Assembly (NCBI GenBank): GCA_021159235.1
Contig: JAGGSF010000106.1
Location: forward strand, 1-32,331
Source of the DNA: Deltaproteobacteria bacterium
GTDB taxonomy: Bacteria; Campylobacterota_A; Desulfurellia; JAGGSF01
DNA length: 32,331 nucleotides
Direction of reading: 5' to 3'
Positions 28,626 to 31,117 of this stretch are shown piece by piece; within the stretch, counting starts at the first letter, position 1, and every line of letters begins with the position of its first letter. Made by a program: the position numbers and the translations under genes. The notes beneath the pieces are model-generated. The model did no database searches and had not been told where the DNA came from. It saw only the letters and a program-made list of their open reading frames with translations.

Positions 28626-31117
28626 AAAGCCTCCTCAATCCAATTTTCTATCTTTTCTTTCCATTCTTCTGCTCTCATCTCGGCCTCTTTTTTATCTTCT
28701 CCTTCCACTATTAAATGAAATAATGACCTGTCTTCATCAGGATAAACGAGTATCCATGAGTTATCTACTTTAAATTTTACTCCGCATGTGGTGATCGCCT
28801 CTTTTCCTCTTGAATATTCTATTAACCTCCTCATTACATTTCCTCTTTCTTCGAACGAACAAGGAATGGTTAATTTCACCTGAGGTGTCAACGGAATCAT
28901 CCTCTCTAATTCAGATAATTTTGCATCTTCATCGCTCAGCATTGCAAGAAGTTTTAGTATAGTGAACATTCCATCAAACGTAGGCATAAATTCACCAAAT
29001 ATGAATCCTCCTTCAGTATCCGCAGCAAAATCTACATTGAACCTGTTAGCATAAAACATTATTTCCTTCATAGCCAGAGGAAAATGAATAATTTCATAAT
29101 CTTTGCATAAACTTTCCAAAGAAGAAGGCGCATCTACCGGCAAACCAGCTTTCTTTATTTTGCCTCTTAAAAGATACATTGCTATACCCAGAGCCATACT
29201 GCCGGAGAGAATATCCCCTCTATCATCTATAAAAAAAGCTTTTTCTCCTCCTGCATCCAACAAAACTCCCATATCCGATCTTGTGCTCTTTACTATATCG
29301 GCTATTCTTTCCAATGCACTTTCAAATTCCTCTTTCGTTCTCGTTGTTTTTGTAGGATCGAGAAAAGCATTCAGTGAAATAACATCACAACCCAAGGTCC
29401 CTAAAATTGCAGGAAGAATTCTAACTGATGTGCCAAAAGAATAGTCAATAACTATGCGTAGAGCACGCTTTTTAATAACATCTGCCTCTATATGTTGTAA
29501 AACGGAATTCTTATAAGATTCTATCATATGATAGGGAAAAGATAGGTTTCCTACGTCCTCATAATTTGCCCTTCTGAAATCCCCTCTAAAAAAGAGTCTT
29601 TCTATTTGTTTTTCTTTTGATACGGATATATCTATGCCATCTGAATCCACAAACTTTATATCCACAACCTCTGCATCAAAGGGGGAACGCCGCACATGAA
29701 ATCCGCCTACCTTTACTGAATTTCTCACCAGATATCTCAAAACAGGCAAAGGCATGTCCGAAAGGTCTTCTACATTCACGCCGCTGGACAAAGCCCCGGC
29801 CATAAGTGCTCTATTTATTGCCCTGGATGCCTTGTGGCTATCCCTGGATGTAACTAAGGTCGTTCTTTCTTTGAATGTTGCCCCGAATGCAGCGCCTAAT
29901 TTAGATGCAAACTCCGGACTGATTTCCAGGTTGGCAATACCAGAGACACCATATTTACCGAATATCGTTCTTGACCAGCGCTTGCTCCAGATAAGTGATG
30001 TAGTTAAAATGGATCTTGCTTCCACTTCCTTGTAGGGCCATATTCTCACTCTTTCTTTTATAACTGCCCCGCTGCCTATCTTGCAGTGATCAGAAATAAC
30101 TACATCACTCTCTCCTTCTACATGATCTCCTATGCTCACATTATTACATACAATGTCTCCATAAAGAGAACTTCTCTCACCTATTGCACAATTGTCCCAG
30201 ATTATACAATTTTCTATGTTTGTATGTTTGCCAACTATCGTATTTTTACCTATTACACTATTTTTTATGCACGCTTTTGCTCCCACCTTTACATTCTCAC
30301 CTAAAGCTACGCTGCCTTCAAGTTTAGCTGTGTAATTTACCTCTACTCCCTTACCAAACCATACTCTGTTTTCTTCCCATCTTTCTCCCGGTATATCTAC
30401 ATTTACTTTCCCCTCAAGAACATCTACTACGCCAGACCTGTAGTCATCAATACTGCCGATATCTCTCCAATATCCCTGTGCTACATAACCATACAACGGA
30501 ATATTCTCTTCCAAAAGCATAGGAAAGAGATGCTTGCTGAAATCAAATTCTCTATCCTTGGGAATAAACGATAAAGCTTCTCGTTCTATAACATAAATAC
30601 CGGTATTTATCGTATCTGAGAATACTTCACCCCATGCAGGTTTTTCCAAAAATCTTTCCACTCTCCCGTTTTCATCGGTTATAACCACGCCGTATGAGGT
30701 AGGATTTTTAACGGATGTAAGAACGATGGTGGCTTTTCCATTCTTCTTCCAGTGAAACTCCAGAGCTTCACTTAAATCAAAATCACACAAAAGATCAGCG
30801 CTGATGATGAGAATTGTGCCCTCCATAGATGCTTTCTCCACAGCATATCTTACTGCTCCAGCTGTTCCTAAATCTGAATCTGGTAGGCAATAGCTGATCT
30901 TCATGTTTAACGAACTTCCATCGCCAAAATAATGCGTAATGCAAGCAGGATGAAAATATAAAAGAACCAACACTTCCTCTACGCTGTGTTTTTTTAAGAG
31001 TTTCAAAACATGCTCCATCACAGGAACATTAACTATAGGAACCATCGGTTTGGGGAGATTAACCGTTAAGGGTTTTAATCTTGTCCCGAAACCACCAGCC
31101 ATAACGATCGCTTTCAT
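28622..31117 (-). CDS. Sugar-1-phosphate nucleotidyltransferase - left-handed beta-helix - phosphomannomutase-like fusion protein
   Basis: 831 aa: NTase domain '[38 protein letters not shown]', hexapeptide repeats about residues 255-370, then phosphohexomutase-like region from about 385 ('[31 protein letters not shown]'). Confidence 0.92.

Follow-up and report, generated by a model that had tools for sequence, protein, structure and literature searches.

The 831-aa protein encoded at positions 28622-31117 (minus strand) of the window, that is, the whole 32,331-nucleotide stretch of DNA analyzed here, is probably a monofunctional sugar-1-phosphate nucleotidylyltransferase (pyrophosphorylase) with an ancient pseudo-phosphohexomutase as its regulatory or structural C-terminal module. 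Such fusions are usually labeled mannose-1-phosphate guanylyltransferase/phosphomannomutase; the window's protein adds a member to this family, already known but misnamed, and is probably not a bifunctional mannose enzyme.

Architecture of the fusion and loss of the mutase motifs

The fusion is encoded in a single reading frame free of frameshifts and, according to Pfam, comprises a nucleotidyltransferase (NTase), a left-handed beta-helix (LbH) and a phosphohexomutase-like half. The NTase domain (residues 1-240; 30398-31117, minus strand, as for all features of the window located here) matched PF00483 with 183 bits, NTP_transferase being placed at residues 2-230, and its catalytic signature is intact. 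It is followed by the hexapeptide repeats of the LbH (residues ~241-370; 30008-30397; PF25084/PF00132), which Pfam placed at 251-352 and for which the AlphaFold model had strands at 245-372, and then by the four subdomains of the pseudo-phosphohexomutase half (residues ~384-826; 28640-29968), as delimited by PGM_PMM I/II and Foldseek. Specifically, PGM_PMM_I was found at 384-515 (84.7 bits) and PGM_PMM_II at 534-634 (59.7 bits), while PGM_PMM_III, with 19.4 bits, fell just under its cut-off of 20.7. This NTase-LbH-mutase-like order in a single chain of ~830 aa is that of the MPG1_transferase-type fusions of cd05805. A full-length ortholog with 94% identity was present in genome G002. The neighboring gene encodes enolase (27372-28625, minus strand), the start codon of which overlaps the fusion's stop codon by 4 nt (ATGA, 28622-28625); the order of the two genes is kept in G002, and they are also adjacent in G006. 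Elsewhere in the window (20079-25773), the molybdenum cofactor genes moaA and moeA were interleaved with envelope genes encoding a GT4 glycosyltransferase, an O-antigen ligase and an LpxL-type acyltransferase.

The motif positions were placed residue by residue against solved archaeal mutases and against the canonical GlmM and PMM/PGM that the same genome encodes separately from the fusion. In the former catalytic Ser loop, TASHNP is replaced by RRSPFD (residues 476-481; 29675-29692), in which R476 is a new conserved residue. The former Mg2+ loop, DGDxDR, reads DAGGEK (621-626; 29240-29257), the second Asp being gone and the third changed to Glu, while the former sugar loop, GExSGH, and phosphate loop, RxSGTxP, read ADTEGG (699-704; 29006-29023) and YPDEDRS (792-798; 28724-28744), respectively. 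The alignment thus bears out the loss of all four motifs that an earlier note had read from the letters of the window, with coordinates correct to 1-3 residues. Further canonical residues were missing as well, namely the Arg of (I/V)RG, replaced by S392, that of RDxR, replaced by H428, and a conserved Gly at 682; S478 and D621 are still present. The note had described the Ser as retained, and this is so for the window's protein (S478), but because Ser occurs at this position in only 100 of 171 relatives, Ser478 does not stand as a kept catalytic residue.

Motif loss across phyla

We assembled 171 unique full-length homologs from at least 15 phyla, drawn from the window's relatives, from GTDB contigs, and from two further phyla sampled around records titled Actinobacteria bacterium and uncultured cyanobacterium. 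Within these two phyla the fusion was common, being present in 124 of 297 (42%) and 104 of 244 (43%) sampled genomes, respectively. A pattern search of the whole C-terminal halves recovered none of [ST]ASHNP, DGDxDR and GExSGH in any of the 171 homologs, and RxS(G/N)T only as one stray string, off the aligned loop where seen (L070). The idea that motifs had been misaligned and were present elsewhere in the chain was rejected on the basis of this search. When 36 stand-alone mutases from related genomes were processed in the same manner, TASHNP was found in 27, DGDxDR in 30, GExSGH in 27, and RxS(G/N)T in 35 of them. The view that the C-terminal half is not a conventional mutase is therefore well supported and extends to the whole fused family.

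In a maximum-likelihood reconstruction of 35 fused domains and the 36 stand-alone mutases, the fused domains formed one side of a branch with 100/100 support. Moreover, no transitional member with intact motifs was found among the most distant relatives fetched. Given the absence of the motifs from all 171 homologs and the single, fully supported fused clade, motif loss is old and in keeping with a single event preceding the spread of the fusion. We also noted that the fusions L016 and L017 (family f3 of the class), from a lineage in which the fusion gene lies inside a glycogen operon, had a branch of great length (1.26) and had drifted further in the metal loop, residue 621 being Tyr and residue 625 Gln.

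A maintained fold with shifted constraint

The AlphaFold model was confident (pLDDT 91.3) and contained the full phosphohexomutase fold. Foldseek aligned the C-terminal half to the archaeal PGM/PMM structures 9du5 (Thermococcus) and 1wqa (Pyrococcus) with a TM-score of 0.90 over its whole length and 27-29% identity; these share the fold and differ in that their catalytic motifs are all intact. Comparison of the window's gene to that of G002 gave dN/dS values of 0.148 (NTase half) and 0.197 (mutase half), and comparison of G006 to G019 gave 0.057 and 0.036, respectively. Purifying selection on the dead half is thus of similar strength to that on the NTase half.

The distribution of constraint differed from that of working mutases. 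In canonical mutases, conservation was far higher in the four loops than anywhere else (3.77 bits, versus a domain mean of 2.10), whereas in the fusions they averaged 2.31 bits versus a domain mean of 2.10 (p = 0.14). Single positions within the former loops were strongly conserved, with R476 in 156, E625 in 159, P793 in 169, and D794 in 146 of the 171 homologs, while positions 478, 481, 621, and 626 were highly variable. The near-invariant, family-specific residues comprised R425, R432, R436, R461, R476, R516, R763, E512, E625, P793, and D794; the window's protein has G at the position of E512. Constraint, as read from the alignment, has moved off the catalytic loops and onto a new arginine-rich set, a pattern more readily explained by a module with a regulatory or structural role than by a new catalytic function in the old cleft.

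Three other accounts of the C-terminal half can be set against these results. A different sugar-phosphate reaction, carried out in the old cleft through R476, E625 and D794, would be in line with the presence of at least one strongly conserved residue in each former loop (R476, E625, G703, P793/D794). The earlier note had allowed for such a repurposed enzyme, but at the same site we consider it improbable, since, unlike in the canonical set, conservation of the four loops taken together does not exceed that of the remaining domain, positions 478, 481, 621, and 626 vary widely, and no metal site is evident. That other residues compensate and keep the half active as a mutase is very improbable: S478 and D621 survive and the fold is complete, yet one metal Asp is gone and another is Glu, the His and Asn of TASHNP are absent, as are the (I/V)RG Arg and the Arg, Ser and Thr of the phosphate loop, 71 of 171 relatives lack the Ser itself, and the genome encodes separate canonical mutases. 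From the residues lost, we infer that mutase activity is absent. Motif loss also speaks for a decaying relic without function, an account to which we give hardly any credence in view of the low dN/dS of the mutase half (0.197 and 0.036), the full reading frames in at least 15 phyla, and the confidently modeled (pLDDT 91), full fold; decay to a pseudogene was rejected on the dN/dS and conservation. Together, purifying selection and the near-invariant, family-specific residues show that the dead half is maintained. The earlier note's proposal of a pseudoenzyme that may serve the NTase is to that extent well supported, the candidate roles being regulation, ligand sensing and scaffolding.

The NTase half and its likely substrate

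The NTase half retained its catalytic signature. Residues G8, G9, G11, R13, and K23 of the GxGxR...K motif, D108 and D219 as the metal Asp pair, and E158-K159-P160 were conserved in at least 170 of the 171 homologs, and the signature residues overall, D112 among them, were kept in 169-171, with T or S at Thr12. The best NCBIfam match was the mannose-1-phosphate guanylyltransferase model NF052502, at 260 bits, short of its cut-off of 440, and the GlgC model TIGR02091 scored 129.8-132 bits against a cut-off of 424.9. Among solved structures, the closest NTase was tlr0611 (8x7s; 35% identity, 198 bits), annotated as a UDP-glucose pyrophosphorylase (UTP-glucose-1-phosphate uridylyltransferase). 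The name tlr0611 is a Thermosynechococcus locus tag, and the protein is probably of the CugP type; at 401 aa, it differs from the fusion in being without a mutase half. The plant GDP-mannose pyrophosphorylase VTC1 ranked below it (30% identity, 153 bits), and GMPPB had 26% identity.

Gene neighborhoods pointed to glycogen in a minority of loci. In relatives of the same class, one such case was a compact operon in G008 (L190:5193-17332), next to an alpha-glucan phosphorylase on the opposite strand and headed by the fusion, with the order fusion-GH57-GH57-GalT-GT5-ROK-GT5-GH13, in which the second GH57 is a glucanotransferase and the others are a GalT-like protein, a GT5 starch synthase, a ROK kinase, a second GT5 and a GH13 branching enzyme. 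Judging by gene positions and protein starts, the arrangement in G004 was very similar. More broadly, 80 contig loci were screened, and 10 of them, belonging to several phyla, had a GT5, GH57 or phosphorylase gene within 5 kb of the fusion. Strong matches to GT5 glycogen synthase were found in all nine well-assembled genomes of the class with a full-length fusion and in none of the four that were at least 90% complete and without a trace of it (Fisher p about 0.0014, calculated by hand and uncorrected for kinship). No GlgC above the TIGR02091 cut-off was present in the 25 genomes of the class. The window's genome itself encodes a GT5, three GH57 matches, and GalU.

In the window's genome, the gene for a GalT-like nucleotidyltransferase also shares an overlap with the beginning of the GT5 glycogen synthase gene (L192:1515-3970), and the same pair occurs inside the G008 glycogen operon (L190:9161-11547). 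This GalT-like enzyme might offer another path between NDP-glucose and Glc-1P.

Taking together the weak NF052502 score, tlr0611 as nearest structure, the glycogen operon context, the co-occurrence with GT5, and the lack of GlgC in the class, we lean slightly toward NDP-glucose (UDP- or ADP-glucose) for glycogen as the product. Against the glycogen link, the window's own fusion gene adjoins enolase rather than glycogen genes, and the separate GalU already makes UDP-glucose. Cyanobacteria and Streptomyces also carry a separate GlgC, so that the role of the fusion may differ by lineage.

The rival product, GDP-mannose, is in our assessment the less likely of the two. Here the label would be right with regard to the NTase, and the dead half would derive from a ManB-ManC fusion that used to be bifunctional, surviving as a relic or as a module. 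NF052502 as best NCBIfam match, the identities with VTC1 and GMPPB, and the glycosyltransferase, O-antigen ligase and LpxL genes in the window agree with this account, and no ManC (TIGR01479) was found in the window's genome or in G002, both of which have the fusion, which could therefore fill that role. However, the NF052502 cut-off was not reached, tlr0611 is closer both by sequence (198 versus 153 bits) and by fold, and glycogen operon context speaks for another sugar. Six genomes of the class (G006, G008, G011, G015, G019, and G021) had both ManC and the fusion, which is accordingly not a simple substitute for ManC. Published sco1388 mutants without a GDP-mannose phenotype (PMC5982138) weigh on the same side. 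Overall, the GDP-mannose part of the label, which the earlier note had left unquestioned, is doubtful, and for some of the family at least, mannose is probably the wrong name. Separately, the absence of the fusion from G001, of the same genus, was examined as a sign of ManC replacing it and rejected: the neighboring, essential enolase gene is missing too although this genome is rated 95% complete, indicating an assembly gap, and the same applies to G013.

Relation to known systems

The CDD family of this NTase-LbH-PGM-like architecture is, as we take it, cd05805 (MPG1_transferase), which includes SCO1388 of Streptomyces. Its CDD text presumably states that members appear to be without metal-binding and catalytic residues, and we therefore treat the motif loss as probably noted before. 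The three-part architecture and length of cd05805 and SCO1388 are those of the fusion, and SCO1388 has been described with its extra domains (PMC5982138). A mutase phylogeny published in 2022 left cd05805 out, describing it as 'known to catalyze distinct reactions' (PMC9426568). In Streptomyces coelicolor, SCO1388 was described as apparently bifunctional, a published case of the annotation that the earlier note had, with justification, warned against, and its disruption left GDP-mannose-dependent traits unaffected (PMC5982138), so that the S. coelicolor case does not help in naming the product; another study, looking at actinorhodin, placed sco1388 mutants alongside mannosylation mutants (PMC6585502). 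In the open-access literature, we found no description of the fusion as a pseudoenzyme, no paper on its glycogen link or its conserved replacement residues, and no biochemistry on any member of the fusion family.

There is precedent for retaining a dead phosphohexomutase for another role in PGM5 (aciculin), an inactive PGM paralog that still binds Glc-1P (PMC7761743). PGM5 differs in keeping a substrate-binding active site and in having no NTase fusion, whereas all four loops are replaced in the window's fusion. A second analogy is GMPPA, the non-catalytic partner that controls the pyrophosphorylase GMPPB; these (7d72-7d74) likewise pair a pyrophosphorylase with a dead partner, but GMPPA is an NTase homolog and not a mutase.

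On the monofunctional reading that we prefer, the NTase domain would make an NDP-hexose, and the mutase-like half, presumably incapable of phospho-Ser/Mg2+ chemistry, would be retained for a regulatory or structural purpose. It might set the oligomer, or the family-specific arginines might bind a phosphorylated metabolite and pass a signal to the NTase, by analogy with the FBP/AMP sites of GlgC and with GMPPA acting on GMPPB. Between ligand sensing and a pure scaffold we see roughly equal odds. Further-reaching, and tentative, is the possibility that these fusions, misnamed for mannose, are widespread NDP-glucose pyrophosphorylases other than GlgC that serve glycogen synthesis, in which a dead phosphoglucomutase has become the allosteric sensor of the pathway. 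If true, a metabolite receptor would have been built from an enzyme of the pathway, and the missing glucose-activating step would be supplied in glycogen-making lineages without GlgC.

For annotation, the sequence shows the mutase label to be wrong, and mannose is probably misassigned in at least part of the family, such that pathway reconstruction is misled. A bacterial pseudo-phosphohexomutase kept in at least 15 phyla is a good system for studying how regulators arise from dead metabolic enzymes, and the fusion is a candidate glucose-activating enzyme in glycogen-making lineages without GlgC.
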